Positions 9,812 to 31,560 of a DNA stretch of 41,410 nt are shown piece by piece. Position numbers and translations under genes: made by a program. The stretch comes from a virus. Every line of letters starts with the position of its first letter. Position 1 is the stretch's first letter. The notes under the pieces were generated by a model. The model saw only the letters and a program-made list of their open reading frames with translations, had not been told where the DNA came from and did not search any database. The stretch lies in IMG/VR virus record IMGVR_UViG_3300005529_000018, positions 1 through 41,410 of that record, one strand, 5' to 3'.

Positions 9812-11788
9812 TTAGCTGTTGAAGTAGGGAACCTTTTGAGCGGTCCCAGCCACATTGATTATCAAATACCCAGCAACTTGGGCGGGCACAGCTCCATTAG
9901 CTCCCGCTGTTGCTGAAGTTGCAGTAGTACTGCCCAAGCCAACCTGACTCGCGCTGACCGTTGGCGCAGCAGCAGTGAGCTTTGCCGTGTTAGCGGTTAG
10001 TCCATTGCTGATAGTAATGCCATCGGCAACAGTGATTAAGCCAGTCGCTCGATTAATGCTCAGTGGAGTGTCTTGAAATGTGCCGGCGTCGTTATAGCGG
10101 TCGAAATCAAAGTCTGAGCCGACATTGCTTCCACTCTCGGCAGTTCCATTCTTTCCGACAAGCCAACGTTGATTCCCGGTATTGGTGTATTGAATGCCTG
10201 CGAAGTTGCCACTGACTACATCAAGTCTGATTTGCTGAGCCCCGCTCGTACTGCTACAGGTGATAGGTAACGGTGAATTGGTGAAGTTGACATTCTTTGA
10301 GAATAGGGCTGATCCATCGTTGTTGATCTTCCAGGTTGTCGCAGACTGATTAGCGTTGAACCCTTGCAGTTGGACGCTAGCATTGTCCACGGTAGGAGTG
10401 AATTGCATATGGTTTGAGCTGCCTTGCAGGTAGAGCCCAACGCTGCCCCAGCCGGACAAGATCATTCCGTTTGACCATTGTCCCCCGATATTGATTGCAG
10501 TTCCGCACCTATTTGCCCCGACTGCATTCAAGTCAATTCCCAGAGAACCAGTTAGAGGCGCATCGACTCCCGAATTGTTTGTAATGTCAATTTCAAGGCC
10601 AAAGCATTGCCCTTGATTCGAGTCGACCGATGTGGCATATGTGAGGTTAAGGTTAGCGCCATATATGCCACGTTTACCTCCTGATCTGACGCCGAATACT
10701 GACAAGCCTACCCATTCGCCCGCTGAGTAAGTGTTCGGAGTGCCAGCAGTTGAAGTAGCTCGTATGCAGAGGCCTTCCTGCCCGACAAGAATTACCGCTG
10801 CACCAGAACCCCCCGTGCCTGCGTAGTTGGCTTTTAGCGTGGCGTGAGTATCATCGGTAACCGAAGCAACTTCAGCCCATTTTGTTACGCCATCGGCGGA
10901 TAGCCGAATCGAAGGACCGAAGAAATATGCGGGGTTAATTTCCGTTGTGAACTTCGTTCCTACGCCAGTCACAGCGGTTGAGCCATTAGTAAGCGTGACT
11001 GTACCTGTCAAAGCAGCCGTCGAAAACTCGCCTAGGTTCTGATTGATAGTTAGTACGGTCGGGCGAGTAGCGAGAGTTCCCGGAGGTGCATTGTTGAGAA
11101 TGTCTTGAGTCTGCCGGAAGTCCCAAATTGACTGATTGTTAGCTGGAGCATTGAAGCCGCCGAACGTCAACCCCTCAACCGCTTGAATGCGGCCAGCCGA
11201 TGAACCCAAGTCTGAAAGCGCACTGTTAATCTGAGCCCCTCCATTAGCTCCCGCAAACTGATCGGCGAACCTAACTCCATTAAGCTTTTTCGCGTTTCCT
11301 GAAAAGCCCGCATTGAACTGGATGAATCCAGTAAACGGCGTATTCCCGCCTGTCAGTTGGGCATATGTTCCATCTCCTGTAGGTGCTGAGACTACTGGTA
11401 GGGTGGTAATAGGAGTAACGGAAGAGGGATCGAGCGTGGCACCGTTTTTGGCATGAATTGATTGCCTTGGGCCTGAAACGCCTCCAGCTACAACCATCAT
11501 GTCGTAATAAACCGCAGTCGTTGAGCCCGATACGGAAATATCCCCGCCCGCTACGCCATCTGCTGCCCTAGTTGAGTAGATCGTCCCTGAGACGTTCCCA
11601 TTGGCATCTGCCGGAAGATCCACGTAGAACTGATTATTTCCGCTGAACGGGGCAAGAATCGCGGTTCCTACAATCGTCGGCTGGGATTGGCCCGTTCCTT
11701 GTAGGACAAAGCGGAGAACGGCATTATTGGCAGAACCTACAGCGGCTTCTGCTAAGGACTTTATCGACCCGGACACGTTTGTCGGCAT
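9812..11788 (-). CDS. Tail fibre / receptor-binding protein
   Basis: 658 codons. The N-terminal 110 residues (MPTNVSGSIKSLAEAAVG ... LRFVLQGTGQSQP) look like a virion-attachment domain of beta type. The rest is a long repetitive Gly/Ala/Ser/Thr/Asn-rich beta region (GTVTLTNGSTAVTGVGTKF, SADGVTKWAEVASVTDDTHATLKANYAGTG, later GMILSGWGSVGLYLQGSSN and RWLVGKNGTAESGSNVGSDFDFDRYND), typical of fibrous trimers. There is no C-terminal peptidase triad or intramolecular chaperone I can name; the end is AGYLIINVAGTAQKVPYF, a short beta domain seen at fibre tips. It probably sets host range. Transcribed with the ejection and tail genes. Confidence 0.78.
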   Translation of the reverse strand: MPTNVSGSIKSLAEAAVGSANNAVLRFVLQGTGQSQPTIVGTAILAPFSGNNQFYVDLPADANGNVSGTIYSTRAADGVAGGDISVSGSTTAVYYDMMVVAGGVSGPRQSIHAKNGATLDPSSVTPITTLPVVSAPTGDGTYAQLTGGNTPFTGFIQFNAGFSGNAKKLNGVRFADQFAGANGGAQINSALSDLGSSAGRIQAVEGLTFGGFNAPANNQSIWDFRQTQDILNNAPPGTLATRPTVLTINQNLGEFSTAALTGTVTLTNGSTAVTGVGTKFTTEINPAYFFGPSIRLSADGVTKWAEVASVTDDTHATLKANYAGTGGSGAAVILVGQEGLCIRATSTAGTPNTYSAGEWVGLSVFGVRSGGKRGIYGANLNLTYATSVDSNQGQCFGLEIDITNNSGVDAPLTGSLGIDLNAVGANRCGTAINIGGQWSNGMILSGWGSVGLYLQGSSNHMQFTPTVDNASVQLQGFNANQSATTWKINNDGSALFSKNVNFTNSPLPITCSSTSGAQQIRLDVVSGNFAGIQYTNTGNQRWLVGKNGTAESGSNVGSDFDFDRYNDAGTFQDTPLSINRATGLITVADGITISNGLTANTAKLTAAAPTVSASQVGLGSTTATSATAGANGAVPAQVAGYLIINVAGTAQKVPYFNS

Positions 11789-15131: not shown

Positions 15132-15505
15132 TAGAGCACCGCCGTGTAATTGTCGTTTAACTCTTTGAACCCAAGTAGCTTGCCTGTGAACTTAATGAGG
15201 GGTTCCACTGTAGATTCAAAGATCATTTCCTTAAATCCAAGTCCCTTTAATGCCTGCCGTATCTGAATCCCACCCTGCAAAATGAGATTGGCCGCATCGC
15301 GTTTCCGTAACGATGGCTCATGGAGTATGTGAAGACGTACACATTGCTCCACTTTGACGTAAAGCCTATGCCCGTCTTCGTCGTACAAGACCTGTAATCC
15401 CCCATCTATCCATCTCTCTGGGCTCTTGTCGTTCTGATGGGTAAGGCAAGTCACCAAATGCGCCTTATCCTCTTCGGAGTAGTTACGAACACCAACCTTC
15501 GTCAT
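15131..15505 (-). CDS. GNAT-like virion-module protein
   Basis: 124 codons. The order of a strand 'HRLYVKVEQCVRLHILHEPSLR', a helix with KRDAANLILQGGIQIRQALKGLGFKEMIFES and the final TVEPLIKFTGKLLGFKEL is that of a GNAT fold: the last 'LIKFTGKLLGFKEL' resembles the GNAT beta5-alpha4 end. A clear acetyl-CoA loop (Q/RxxGxG/A) is not evident, so activity is doubtful. GNAT-like proteins are common beside podovirus ejection genes. Stops and starts here share bases with neighbours. Confidence 0.55.
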   Translation of the reverse strand: MTKVGVRNYSEEDKAHLVTCLTHQNDKSPERWIDGGLQVLYDEDGHRLYVKVEQCVRLHILHEPSLRKRDAANLILQGGIQIRQALKGLGFKEMIFESTVEPLIKFTGKLLGFKELNDNYTAVL

Positions 15506-15834
15506 CAGAATTGTCTGGGCTTCAAATGAGGAAACCCGGCTACAGCGTGCACCTTAGTCATAGCCTGTGCAGTCGTATCGCCTACTAAAACGCCATACTT
15601 TGCCAGCTTTTGTACGCATCCAGCGTCTAATGGTTCGCTTCCAAAGTGATTCGGCATACACGCGCATACGTTTTGAATTGCGTTGAGAACCTGTTCCGAA
15701 TCACAATTGCCGTCCATATTCACCACTCCAACTGATTGCCCGTCATCGTCTGTCCAGATATGGAAGGTTGCGCCGGGAACCTGTGTTCTCAAAAGCTCAG
15801 GGCCGCAAGATGGAATGAAGAAAAGCTGTCTCAT
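15505..15834 (-). CDS. Hypothetical protein in the tail/ejection block, 109 aa
   Basis: MRQLFFIPSCGPELLRTQVPGATFHIWTDDDGQSVGVVNMDGN, then VLNAIQNVCACMPNHFG and LAKYGVLVGDTTAQAMTKVHAVAGFPHLKPRQF. Small alpha/beta protein with five Cys. Exactly abuts both neighbours (last base shared), so it is part of the virion operon. No named family recognised. Confidence 0.6.
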   Translation of the reverse strand: MRQLFFIPSCGPELLRTQVPGATFHIWTDDDGQSVGVVNMDGNCDSEQVLNAIQNVCACMPNHFGSEPLDAGCVQKLAKYGVLVGDTTAQAMTKVHAVAGFPHLKPRQF

Positions 15835-17033
15835 CAGAATTTGTTGAGGTTATGAGCTACTAGACCGTTTTCGAGGATGTAATGATGGTCTTCTTCGTCC
15901 TCGCTATCGACGTGGAGATTAAACACTGTTCCAGTCCAGTCATAGTGCCTCTTGCAGCGAGACGGAAAGATGTTATTGGCCGGAATCCAATCGGAATCGC
16001 GCTTAAACCTGTGGGCGAAGGTCACTAGTTCGCCGTCGTGAAACTCCACCATGTGATCTGTGAAGTGATAGTGAACTAAAAGTTTGGCTCGGTGAACTCC
16101 TGTCAGGTTCTCAATATGAAACTCGCCCGGAAGCGAATCAAAACGCTTTAGGCCGTCAGGGGTTTTAATCTTGACGTTCCCTGTAAAACACCCACCTCCA
16201 CCGCCGCCACCGCCGCCAGAGCCACTCCCTGACCCGCTGGAAGTCGTAGCTCCCTGCATCCCCCCGATGCTTAGAGGGATATGATTTCTTAGGTTCTGCT
16301 GTTGAACGAGTGTCTTGCTTCCCGCTGAGGGCTGAGCATAAGCAGGCGTCCCGCTTCCTCCTGCAACCCACGCAATAGCCTTTGCAGCATCGTCATAGTA
16401 GGGATAGAAGTTGTAAGTCGTTCCGCTCGTAAGTCCGGTAATCGTCTGCGTTCCGCTCAGTGGGCCTGTCGTGGTCTTATCCGCTCGATAGATCGTGATA
16501 TTTGACGAACCGTTTGTTCCATCCCAATACCACGTGATGCTTGTCGTTGTGCTCGTATAGGCAAATCCGGTAGTTGTGCTAAATGGCGTGCTCCCTGCGC
16601 TCCCGGCTACGGCTGCGCTCTGAGCGGAATTAGGTAGCGATTCCTGTCCGGTCGTATCGACTGAAGTTACCCAATAGTAGTAATTCGCTCCTGTTGCTGC
16701 GGTGATTACGTCGCTAAAGGTGATTGGGCCTTTGTGCGTCGGATCGTGTACGAACGTATGAACCAGACTCGAATTGATAAATATGTTCTGAGTGTTCCGA
16801 TAGACCCGATAGGCCGCTATTACGTTCGTAGCGCCTGTTGGAACCTGTACTTGATTGAAGCTGAACTGAAAGCCTGTTGCCGTCCCTGTCGTGGGGATTG
16901 CAATCTGCGGAGCTGGGGGAATGCTTAACGGCTTTTGCGCCAGTTGGACGTTGTTCTTAACCAGAATTTGTAACTGATTCTGAAACGGGGCAGGCCATTG
17001 AATCGCTCTTAGGATAGCGTTGTCGTTGGTCAT
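15834..17033 (-). CDS. Tail protein with FN3-like domains and C-terminal Hint autoprocessing domain
   Basis: 399 codons. Residues about 40-138 and 148-230 look like two fibronectin-III-type units (AYRVYRNTQ, YYYWVTSVDTTGQES; ITIYRADKTTTGPLSG, GTTYNFYPYY). A Gly/Ser linker with nine successive Gly (273-281) leads straight to Cys282. Residues 282-395 read as a full Hint domain: block A CFTGNVKIKTPDG, block B TFAH (Thr338, His341) followed by DWIPANNI, block F GTVFNLHVD...HHYIL, block G LVAHN with His394-Asn395. Only four residues (LNKF) follow, with Leu at +1 instead of Cys/Ser/Thr, so splicing is excluded but N-terminal thioester cleavage and Asn cyclisation are possible. It lies between the nozzle protein and the ejection genes. 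Confidence 0.85.
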   Translation of the reverse strand: MTNDNAILRAIQWPAPFQNQLQILVKNNVQLAQKPLSIPPAPQIAIPTTGTATGFQFSFNQVQVPTGATNVIAAYRVYRNTQNIFINSSLVHTFVHDPTHKGPITFSDVITAATGANYYYWVTSVDTTGQESLPNSAQSAAVAGSAGSTPFSTTTGFAYTSTTTSITWYWDGTNGSSNITIYRADKTTTGPLSGTQTITGLTSGTTYNFYPYYDDAAKAIAWVAGGSGTPAYAQPSAGSKTLVQQQNLRNHIPLSIGGMQGATTSSGSGSGSGGGGGGGGGCFTGNVKIKTPDGLKRFDSLPGEFHIENLTGVHRAKLLVHYHFTDHMVEFHDGELVTFAHRFKRDSDWIPANNIFPSRCKRHYDWTGTVFNLHVDSEDEEDHHYILENGLVAHNLNKF

Positions 17034-29084: not shown

Positions 29085-29290
29085 TAGCTACTGCGGAGAC
29101 GGCAGAAGTGACAATCTTTCTCAGCTTCAGGCTCGCCGTGATAATGAGTCACTGGCCTGCCGCACTTGCATTTGCCTATTGCCTTGACCTTAGGAATGGC
29201 CTGCTCGAATTGCTTGAGCCTTCGGACGATATACCAAACAGCCACGCCAACAAGCAGAGCGAAAGCTAAGAAGAAAAATGCTAGTTGCAT
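29084..29290 (-). CDS. Membrane-anchored zinc-ribbon protein, 68 aa
   Basis: MQLAFFFLAFALLVGVAVWYIVRRLKQFEQ: an N-terminal membrane helix. Then GKCKCGRPVTHYHGEPEAEKDCHFCRLR, a CxC...H...CxxC unit that would bind zinc. It lies between the methyltransferase and the beta repeat protein. Overlaps the methyltransferase 3' end by 10 bases. Role unknown. Confidence 0.6.
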   Translation of the reverse strand: MQLAFFFLAFALLVGVAVWYIVRRLKQFEQAIPKVKAIGKCKCGRPVTHYHGEPEAEKDCHFCRLRSS

Positions 29291-29829
29291 TGAATGACTA
29301 TTGCTCTCCCAGTCCCCTTATCTGAGTAGTGGAAGAAAAGCGTATGTTCTGGGAGGTAGGGACTAAGCAGGTTATTTTTGACTGTCCACTCATCCACGTC
29401 TTCAATGATGTAGAGGCTTTTAGGAGCCATCGACAATCGGAGCACTTCAAAGTATTTGAGCTGGTCTTGGGGGTCGTGGCTGCCGTCATCTACAACTAGA
29501 TCGAACTTCGGATAGGTGCAACCGTCATCTACGTGTTTTGTAACGATACGAGGAGGGTCAGACGCTTCGGCGACTGCACTGTGATCGTTGTCCACTCCGT
29601 AAATGGTTGCGTCCTGAAAATAGTCTCGCCACATGCGGAGACTCGCTCCAGCTTTATAGCCTTTGACGTGCGGCATTGCCTGTGGCGTTCCGATGCCGAT
29701 TTCGAGAACGTTTTTGACTTCATTGCGTCTACCCGACAATAGCAAATCGTAAAAAGGGGTGTAAACGCCTAGTTTGTCTGTTCGGTACTTGCTGGCGAAC
29801 TGGCAGAGTTCGCTTTGTCCTGCGCCCAT
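29281..29829 (-). CDS. SAM-dependent methyltransferase, TylF/macrocin O-methyltransferase-like
   Basis: 182 codons from the ATG at 29829. The leading ELCQFASKYRTDKLGVYTPFYDLLLSGRR, then motif I VLEIGIGTPQAMP, ASLRMWRDYFQDATIYGVDND (motif II with acidic Asp), FDLVVDDGSHDPQDQL (motif IV, metal-binding DDGSH) and LYIIEDVDEW. These are those of the TylF/CmcI-type sugar O-methyltransferases. The first 61 bases overlap the upstream gene in another frame; the N-terminal motif shows that both are real. Next to a glycosyltransferase, it may methylate the sugar that enzyme transfers. Confidence 0.8.
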   Translation of the reverse strand: MGAGQSELCQFASKYRTDKLGVYTPFYDLLLSGRRNEVKNVLEIGIGTPQAMPHVKGYKAGASLRMWRDYFQDATIYGVDNDHSAVAEASDPPRIVTKHVDDGCTYPKFDLVVDDGSHDPQDQLKYFEVLRLSMAPKSLYIIEDVDEWTVKNNLLSPYLPEHTLFFHYSDKGTGRAIVIQCN

Positions 29830-30005
29830 TTGTTCACATCTTCCGGCTTTACGCCTAGTTTTTCGCAAACGCAGGCAAGGCACATATCAATCTTCTGAAT
29901 TGCTACGGCCTGCGCCCTGATTACTCCTGCCTGCTCGTCATAGACCTTTTGGGCTTCTGCACGGCTTATAAAGCCATTCCAATAGCTAATATGCGTCTGA
30001 CTCAT
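29769..30005 (-). CDS. Small helical protein, 78 aa
   Basis: MSQTHISYWNGFISRAEAQKVYDEQAGVIRAQAVAIQKIDMCLACVCEKLGVKPEDVNKWAQDKANSASSPASTEQTN. Helical, with one CxxCxC cluster. ATGA-coupled to the glycosyltransferase gene and overlapping the methyltransferase by 61 bases. It may be an adaptor for one of them. Confidence 0.6.
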   Translation of the reverse strand: MSQTHISYWNGFISRAEAQKVYDEQAGVIRAQAVAIQKIDMCLACVCEKLGVKPEDVNKWAQDKANSASSPASTEQTN

Positions 30006-31417
30006 GCAACCTCGTTCAAGAACTTATTCCTGTGCTCGTACATCTGTCTCATCTGAGAAGGAAAGACCGCGTGCATAGTAACTATTTCCTCAGTCACCTT
30101 GTCAGGATCGAAGGACTTCCCGTCTCCAAAGAAGAAGTGGGCTGACCATCCGGGCCTGTGATTCTGGAGCATGATTGGACGAATGTTATGTTCCGCCAGG
30201 ACTCGGCTAACATGAACGTCCTCAGCGTACTCATGCCGTCTCTGTTGGCCCTTAGTGGCTACGATTTCAGCCGCCTGACGCGATAGGAAATAACCAGGGC
30301 CGCCAGAACAGACGCTTGCATGGAGGTATCCTGCATAATCAAAGGCGTTCTCCATCATCTCGACTAGGAGCTTTTCAGCGAATACCCAAGTATCGGTGTC
30401 GCACTTGTAGATGTACTCAAAGTTCTTCCCTACAGCCCATTTGCAGATTCCGACCGTCTTCTCAATCAAAGACCCATAGCCATCAGGAACATCGAGGAAG
30501 ACTTCATCCGGTAATGGCTGTCTAGGAAATCCATCGGAAGGCTTGCCATAGAAGAACTTGACGGTTACGTTTTTGAACGGCGCGAAGTCTTTAACCCACG
30601 TTTCTCTACAGGCTTGCGTCTGATCGTTCGGCCCTGAGACGTGCATGTCTTTACCATATTCAGGATTGCCTCTGTGTTCCCACCGTCCTTCATAATCAAG
30701 TCGGAAACAGGTAGGCACTGCAATGAGGACTTTTGGGAGCGGCGGGAGGTCTTCGACGGACCTAGAACGATTACCCCCGATATGAGTGACAATGGGTCGG
30801 CCAAGGTCGGCGATTCTGTAGCCTTGATCCAGAAGATGTTTTGAGAGTTCGCCTTCATGCTGTAATCCCTTCACCCCTACAGAGGCTAGAACTTGCGGCA
30901 GAATCTTGAGCAACGTCGAACGCCGGCGAAGTCCAGGATTCCAAGACCATCCGCCCCAGCATCCACGCCAGTAGGGTTCGGCAATCTCAACGCTCATATT
31001 CCCGCGCATGGCCCTAGTCAAGGGATGCCAGCCAGAAGGGCCGCGTAATGAAACCTGCGCTATCAGAGGATCGGCATCCAGAATCGCCTTCGACTCCCGC
31101 ATGAACGGAGAAATCTGATTCTGGAATAACCAGTCTTCCTCACACCAAAACACATAATCGTGTTTGGCTTCGTGAATTAGCCTCGCAATAGCAAAGCACT
31201 GCCCCATTCTCGTCTTACCGGAAATCCATCGGACATTCCGACTTCGCCAGATGTCTCCATTCAAAAACTCCGGTTTAGGCCCATCTGAGTCCTCATAGAT
31301 CAGTACCTCTTGCGGCTCTTGATCCACGATTGCATAGAAGCTCTCAAGCGTTGTTTGCAGTAAATCCGACCTGCCGCAACTCGTAACGCACATTGAAATG
31401 TTAGTGTTAGGAGCCAT
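30002..31417 (-). CDS. Two-domain glycosyltransferase (GT2-like + GT31-like)
   Basis: 471 codons from the ATG at 31417. N-terminal domain: NISMCVTSCGRSDLLQTTLESFY and VFWCEEDWLF (EED as the DxD-like metal motif, residues about 93-95), then SVEIAEPYWRGCWGGWSWNPGLRR, a GT-A fold. Second domain from about residue 228: KVLIAVPTCFR, CRETWVKDF, YIYKCDTDTWV (DTD motif, about 340-342), SGGPGYFLSRQAAEIV and YAEDVHVSRVL, the order of GT31/fringe-type beta-1,3-glycosyltransferases. Both domains keep their key motifs, so two sequential transfers are possible. Substrate unknown: phage DNA, virion protein or host surface. First gene of the late operon; the ATG has no close Shine-Dalgarno (see 31426-31449). 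Confidence 0.8.
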   Translation of the reverse strand: MAPNTNISMCVTSCGRSDLLQTTLESFYAIVDQEPQEVLIYEDSDGPKPEFLNGDIWRSRNVRWISGKTRMGQCFAIARLIHEAKHDYVFWCEEDWLFQNQISPFMRESKAILDADPLIAQVSLRGPSGWHPLTRAMRGNMSVEIAEPYWRGCWGGWSWNPGLRRRSTLLKILPQVLASVGVKGLQHEGELSKHLLDQGYRIADLGRPIVTHIGGNRSRSVEDLPPLPKVLIAVPTCFRLDYEGRWEHRGNPEYGKDMHVSGPNDQTQACRETWVKDFAPFKNVTVKFFYGKPSDGFPRQPLPDEVFLDVPDGYGSLIEKTVGICKWAVGKNFEYIYKCDTDTWVFAEKLLVEMMENAFDYAGYLHASVCSGGPGYFLSRQAAEIVATKGQQRRHEYAEDVHVSRVLAEHNIRPIMLQNHRPGWSAHFFFGDGKSFDPDKVTEEIVTMHAVFPSQMRQMYEHRNKFLNEVA

Positions 31418-31425
31418 GACGGTAA

Positions 31426-31449
31426 TTTCGCTAAGCGAAACGGCTCCTG
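31426..31449 (-). promoter_or_regulatory. SD separated from the glycosyltransferase ATG by a perfect hairpin
   Basis: On the minus strand CAGGAG (31449-31444) lies 26 bases before the ATG at 31417. Between them is TTTCGC-TTA-GCGAAA (31440-31426). Folded out, the effective SD-to-ATG spacing would be about 11 bases. The palindrome also contains CGCT-A-AGCG half sites like those in the early promoter, so it may be an operator instead. Confidence 0.45.
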
Positions 31450-31560
31450 CGTGTATTGGAAAAGGCACCGAAAGAGAGTTTGCCCGCCTTCCCCATTTGC
31501 ATTCCTTGGGGGGCCTCACCCGGCACTTTCATTACGTAAAAAGAATGCTTATTCGCTGAC

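Follow-up and report, generated by a model that had tools for sequence, protein, structure and literature searches.

A tail-type protein encoded by an uncultured phage ends in a Hint domain, which by its sequence and structural model is a real domain and most likely an active, self-excising BIL/intein-like element. The window, the whole 41,410-nucleotide stretch analyzed here (IMG/VR record IMGVR_UViG_3300005529_000018), carries the precursor gene on the minus strand at 15834 to 17033, where the open reading frame translates to 399 amino acids; all parts of the gene given below lie on that strand. The gene directly follows one encoding a 601-amino-acid protein with a head-closure PHROG match and overlaps both of its neighbors, and portal, scaffold-like, capsid, and terminase genes lie upstream on the same strand. 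The downstream neighbor (15505 to 15834, minus strand) encodes 109 amino acids and overlaps the stop codon of the Hint gene. A 48% identical protein is encoded at the same place in a relative, L166, and in another, L165, the start of this gene likewise follows the stop of the tail-type gene; because this position is conserved, it anchors the comparison of the window with its relatives at the 3' end. The downstream protein itself ends in GFPHLKPRQF, similar to the ends of its positional counterparts in L166 (GFPPLKPKRF) and L122 (GFPPFRPTYH); those in L111 and L123 are of similar size. Elsewhere in the window, the last 50 residues of a tail-fiber-like protein (9812 to 11788, minus strand) are 68% identical to the end of a protein in L110 (residues 835 to 884); the rest of that protein differs, which suggests an exchangeable C-terminal module. 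Near the structural genes, a gene with a galactosyltransferase-family match (30002 to 31519, minus strand; PF01762, E = 1e-8) adjoins a methyltransferase-like ORF recognized by eye only (29281 to 29883, minus strand), and the two possibly modify glycans of the virion or the host.

The sequence-only reading had described the precursor as an FN3 tail part followed by a nine-glycine linker and a complete Hint domain, and its coordinates, residue numbers, and motifs all agree with the translation of 15834 to 17033. The first beta-rich module (about residues 45 to 140; 16614 to 16901), FN3-like by resemblance only, is kin to a separate 340-amino-acid gene in L122. The second FN3-like module (about residues 148 to 240; 16314 to 16592) is common to the C termini of siphophage tail proteins and is 50 to 61% identical to the tail proteins of L111 and L123, which match PHROG tail families 1101 and 4271. 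As a profile match, the FN3 assignment is weak (Pfam fn3, E = 0.84). A Ser/Gly linker joins these modules to Cys282 and ends in the nine-glycine run (residues 273 to 281; 16191 to 16217), which closes the N-part and has a counterpart in L165 and L166. The Hint domain covers Cys282 to Asn395 (114 amino acids; 15849 to 16190). Cys282, Hint residue 1 and the predicted thioester nucleophile, is encoded at 16188 to 16190, position 16190 being the first base of its codon. Block B reads TFAH in the context LVTFAH (Thr338 to His341; 16011 to 16022), and the predicted site of C-terminal cleavage by Asn cyclization, His394-Asn395 (15849 to 15854), stands in the context VAHN. Only the C-terminal tail, LNKF (15837 to 15848), and the stop codon follow; Hint and tail together are the last 118 residues.

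The complete Hint domain is borne out by profiles, an AlphaFold2 model, Foldseek, and an alignment of relatives as well as by translation. Sequence profiles are suggestive. The NCBIfam model TIGR01443, "intein C-terminal splicing region," matched the window protein with 21.6 bits against a cut-off of 15.6, and Pfam Vint (Hint) matched its C-terminal part with an E value of 0.0022, under the gathering score. The Vint (PF14623) scores of the window member, 14.8 and 17.4 bits, lie below the curated cut-off of 27. The fold is settled by the predicted structure. The AlphaFold2 model of the domain, built from a 13-row alignment, is all beta, with a mean pLDDT of 93.2 and a pTM of 0.85. When it was compared with the PDB by Foldseek, every match with a probability of at least 0.99, the best 37 in all, was to an intein, BIL domain, or Vint domain; the best E value was 1.5e-4 and TM-scores reached 0.69. 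The best matches included BIL2 of Tetrahymena, DnaB/DnaE inteins, the Clostridium thermocellum BIL domain, and Vint, the only BIL structures matching by fold being PDB 6y75 and 2lwy. The moderate TM-scores to solved Hint domains (0.57 to 0.69) arise because the window domain is shorter than the solved mini-inteins. A profile search of PDB sequences returned noise only. The matches among predicted viral structures carry Hint or intein domains. One of them, from an uncultured member of the Caudovirales, is annotated "Fibronectin type III" (matching domain, E = 9e-3), so the combination of FN3 and Hint is already in databases, unremarked. The features that mark the Hint superfamily, the fold, a Cys or Ser at position 1, and a TxxH block B, are all found here. 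A recent origin of the domain from foreign DNA is weakened as an idea by its GC content, 47.7% against 50.7 +/- 2.4% in windows of the late region (z = -1.3).

Twelve relatives of the window Hint, 35 to 50% identical to it, were recovered from other uncultured phages in IMG/VR by degenerate patterns and profiles; we call this family type 1. A first scan of viral contigs with the single window domain gave no match, and the entry to the family was a degenerate DNA pattern for GGGGCFxG[DN]. Bacterial genome contigs yielded no type-1 relative, a motif scan gave chance matches only, and no near relatives were found among cultured phages. The residues that never change in the 13 members include (domain numbering) Cys1, Thr57, His60, His113, and Asn114. 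Some search patterns held CF or AHN, so that the invariance of Cys1 and of His-Asn is partly selected. Thr57 and His60 lay outside every search pattern, and the chance of finding both among the six unforced invariant columns is about 0.003. Independent support for Cys1 and His-Asn comes from L133 and L134, found with a block-F pattern and also carrying both, and from loci reached through the FN3 module, whose Hint types likewise have the terminal His-Asn. All residues predicted to be needed for an N-terminal thioester and a C-terminal Asn cyclization are present, as had been proposed for the window protein.

Type-1 domains are also carried by the tail and virion proteins of other phages, and their hosts vary. 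The L111 and L123 hosts are siphophage tail proteins, and the L109 host is a virion structural protein (PHROG 3287); in L110, L133, and L134 the domain is internal, in L134 inside a homolog of the head-closure-like protein that the window encodes. Polyglycine directly precedes Cys1 in nearly all C-terminal members, and 3 to 6 residues follow Asn, the tails being LNKF, FNKF, SKMV, LKVK, LKEV, VKIV, FKSN, NKIGP, NKYSPP, and NRPVKP. At +1 the window has Leu396 and the relatives have Leu, Phe, Asn, Val, Ile, or Lys, with Ser only in L088 and L111. In L133 (618 to 1457), the type-1 Hint is followed by KGGGGGG and a second domain with a Cys start and a THN end, perhaps a tandem Hint pair. A J-like tail-tip protein of uncultured phages (78 loci, L004 to L108; for example, L022, 7284 to 11027) has a Hint near its N terminus, in the order of about 10 to 20 residues, a Gly run, a 130-amino-acid Hint (CF.G...VHN), AGLG, and a Gly-rich stretch. 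The J-like Hints comprise 63 distinct domains, and two cultured Pseudomonas phages (L158 and L159) have a J-like protein without Hint.

The activity of the window Hint is a prediction, and on a reading without processing the domain would be an inactive or purely structural remnant, retained by the virion protein. In favor of that reading, the block-B His is gone from the Hint-like C termini of L178 to L180 (CEP or TEP). It is improbable, however, as every catalytic residue is retained in 13 divergent type-1 members and selection appears to be purifying, on limited data: dN/dS is about 0.07 for the type-1 Hint (a single informative pair, 60 codons), and for the related J-type Hints at N termini the median over 317 pairs is 0.09.

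When the FN3 module alone was used as a query, proteins both with and without Hint were found. The syntenic relatives L165 and L166 carry the same tail-type protein, 57 to 59% identical, without Hint; the head-closure-like gene is 65 to 67% identical, the next gene upstream 79 to 80%, and the following genes 48 to 65%. The alignment gap opens exactly between the Gly run and Cys282, and the L165 and L166 proteins pass from the Gly run directly into RLYL or GKFV and the stop, the counterparts of LNKF. Their ends read GGGGGGGGGGRLYL and GGGGGGGGGGKFV, respectively, and, as in the window, the next gene begins at the stop codon. Removal of residues 282 to 395 from the window protein leaves 285 amino acids (399 - 114), and the L165 and L166 proteins have 285 and 284. 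From this agreement in sequence length, the Hint is lodged like an intein between the N-part and a four-residue C-part. The tails of Hint-less proteins (RLYL, KFV, RLV, KGRFA, and TLRKV) resemble those behind type-1 domains in being short and containing Lys or Arg. A move of the Hint to a separate gene was rejected, as no copy was found elsewhere in the L165 or L166 record. A final scan for more alleles of the window lineage returned the same two contigs only. The Hint is also C-terminal in L122 (40.7 kb), a syntenic relative at greater distance, whose N-part is split over two genes. A tree of FN3 modules places the window beside the two Hint-less rows (96/91 support), and at least two changes are required to explain where Hint is present; being short and unrooted, this tree would fit either gain or loss of the domain.

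In light of this, we consider it probable that the Hint is an A-type BIL-like insertion between the polyglycine linker and the four-residue tail that excises itself after folding. Once the Hint had folded, Cys282 would attack the carbonyl of Gly281 to form a thioester, and cyclization of Asn395 would free the LNKF tail and let the Hint domain leave. The amine of the freed tail could then attack the thioester, giving a rejoined protein of 285 amino acids (Gly9-LNKF) with the junction peptide ...GGGGGGGGGLNKF; alternatively, hydrolysis of the thioester would give a protein of 281 amino acids ending in Gly9. Either product is close to the natural Hint-less proteins, and what enters the virion would then be an ordinary tail protein. 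On this reading the odds between splicing and plain cleavage are about even, and the chemistry itself, its balance, and any benefit to the phage are inferred. A-type BIL domains form an N-terminal thioester, cyclize Asn, and mainly cleave, with ligation if the freed amine attacks the thioester (PMC4031507; PMC7664689). The earlier suggestion that, with Leu at +1, only release or transfer is in effect left does not hold in that form, since A-type BILs without a +1 nucleophile can still ligate (PMC4031507), although another review holds that they cannot (PMC7765530). For self-excision we count the fold, the invariant catalytic residues, the Hint-less orthologs, and the low dN/dS; against it we count the Leu, Phe, Asn, or Val at +1, which makes cleavage likelier than splicing, the small number of Hint-less orthologs found in the window lineage (two, L165 and L166), and the moderate TM-scores to solved Hint domains.

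The sequence-only reading had also offered release of the tail part or its transfer as a thioester. A hedgehog Hint transfers its protein to cholesterol, a model for covalent cross-linking. The window Hint might similarly transfer the tail protein, through its polyglycine end, to another protein of the virion or to the host surface, where an amine, thiol, or hydroxyl would accept it. The conserved Cys1 and TxxH block, the Gly at -1 (an easy acyl donor), and the closest solved structure, BIL2 of the Tetrahymena BUBL1 locus, a ubiquitin-like gene type, are in keeping with such a transfer. It would require only the N-terminal half-reaction, yet the His-Asn at the C-terminal edge is invariant, mostly with 3 to 6 residues behind it, which excision explains better; no acceptor is known, and the Hint-less relatives do without the domain. 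Cross-linking is less likely than self-excision, and transfer as the function of the domain is quite unlikely. The close relatives that have no Hint end in a Gly run and 3 to 4 residues, which makes the Hint-less protein the simplest candidate for the mature form, and the agreement in tail and length favors full excision over a hedgehog-like transfer. On these sequence comparisons, self-excision to the Hint-less form is the more likely course. PT-HINT proteins have a Hint that frees a C-terminal toxin; this role was dropped for the window Hint, which has only four residues behind it.

The same FN3-Gly-linker module is followed by other Hint types. A second C-terminal type, in one alignment, is found in L163, L167, L169, L171, and L172; its AlphaFold2 model has a pLDDT of 85.9, and its best PDB match is the C. 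thermocellum BIL domain (E = 3e-9, TM-score 0.82). L176 has Hint_2, above the cut-off, and L175 a further C-terminal Hint of no assigned type. The Hint-like C termini of L178 to L180 match no profile and lack the block-B His; they have Cys-Pro at the start, IHN near the end, and CEP or TEP in place of TxxH, possibly with altered chemistry. With at least three divergent Hint types and an empty state behind one module, the place tolerates, or favors, such domains; tail proteins of other phages carry unrelated Hint versions at this position. We consider it unlikely that the Gly linker near the C terminus of phage tail adhesins repeatedly receives unrelated Hint lineages with their cleavage put to use, the polyglycine thioester being passed on to form covalent links inside the tail or with the host. 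It is similarly doubtful that the Hint is a C-terminal assembly chaperone that aids folding or oligomerization of the tail protein and then cuts itself off, as do the S74 chaperones of tail spikes, whose fold is unrelated to Hint. A chaperone would suit the C-terminal location, seen on tail-type proteins of several phage lineages, and different Hint types at one place would be functional replacements, but close relatives with the same N-part have no such domain, and Hints are also found internally in structural proteins (L110 and L134) and at the N terminus of J proteins.

Most known inteins lie in conserved proteins of replication and packaging. For mycobacteriophages, a 2013 survey placed them in terminase and nonstructural genes (PMC3706429). 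Among open-access full texts that connect phage tails, virions, or autoproteolysis with Hint or BIL domains, terminase and replication inteins came up but no C-terminal Hint on phage tail proteins, and the open literature searched gave no description of an FN3-Gly-linker module carrying an empty site or varied Hint types. In the phages compared here, tail proteins of the virion repeatedly carry intein-like domains, at a linker a few residues from the end and with natural Hint-less alleles. If they are active, some tail proteins would be matured posttranslationally by self-excision, gene-based predictions of such proteins would be about 110 residues too long, and the domains would form a new family of very small cleaving domains.

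Among known Hint-fold systems, the C-terminal domain of hedgehog shares the fold and the N-terminal thioester chemistry predicted here, but it needs no C-terminal Asn cyclization, and the window Hint has no sterol-recognition (sterol-binding) region, with only LNKF behind it. Vint (PF14623) is the top Pfam match in 10 of the 13 type-1 members, and the solved Tetrahymena Vint reaches a TM-score of 0.69 with the window Hint, which nevertheless scores under the curated cut-off and has no von Willebrand domain. Class 1 mini-inteins, such as gp41-1 and Npu DnaE, share the fold, the catalytic residues, and presence or absence at one site, the last seen with terminase inteins among close relatives in mycobacteriophage cluster J (PMC3706429) and here in L165 and L166. 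The window Hint differs from them in having Leu396 rather than Cys, Ser, or Thr at +1 and in lying outside any conserved active site of a replication or packaging protein. A-type BIL domains (Amitai 2003 and Dassa 2004, as summarized in PMC4031507 and PMC7765530) have Cys1, a TxxH block B, a C-terminal His-Asn, no endonuclease, variable host proteins, and usually a +1 residue other than Cys, Ser, or Thr, all as in the window Hint. The latter is shorter (114 amino acids), sits at the extreme C terminus of phage tail proteins with polyglycine before it and, over the family, 3 to 6 residues behind, and has Hint-less alleles at the same site. The His394-Asn395 end together with the non-nucleophilic Leu396 is the mark of A-type BIL domains, and by this motif the window Hint would belong with them.
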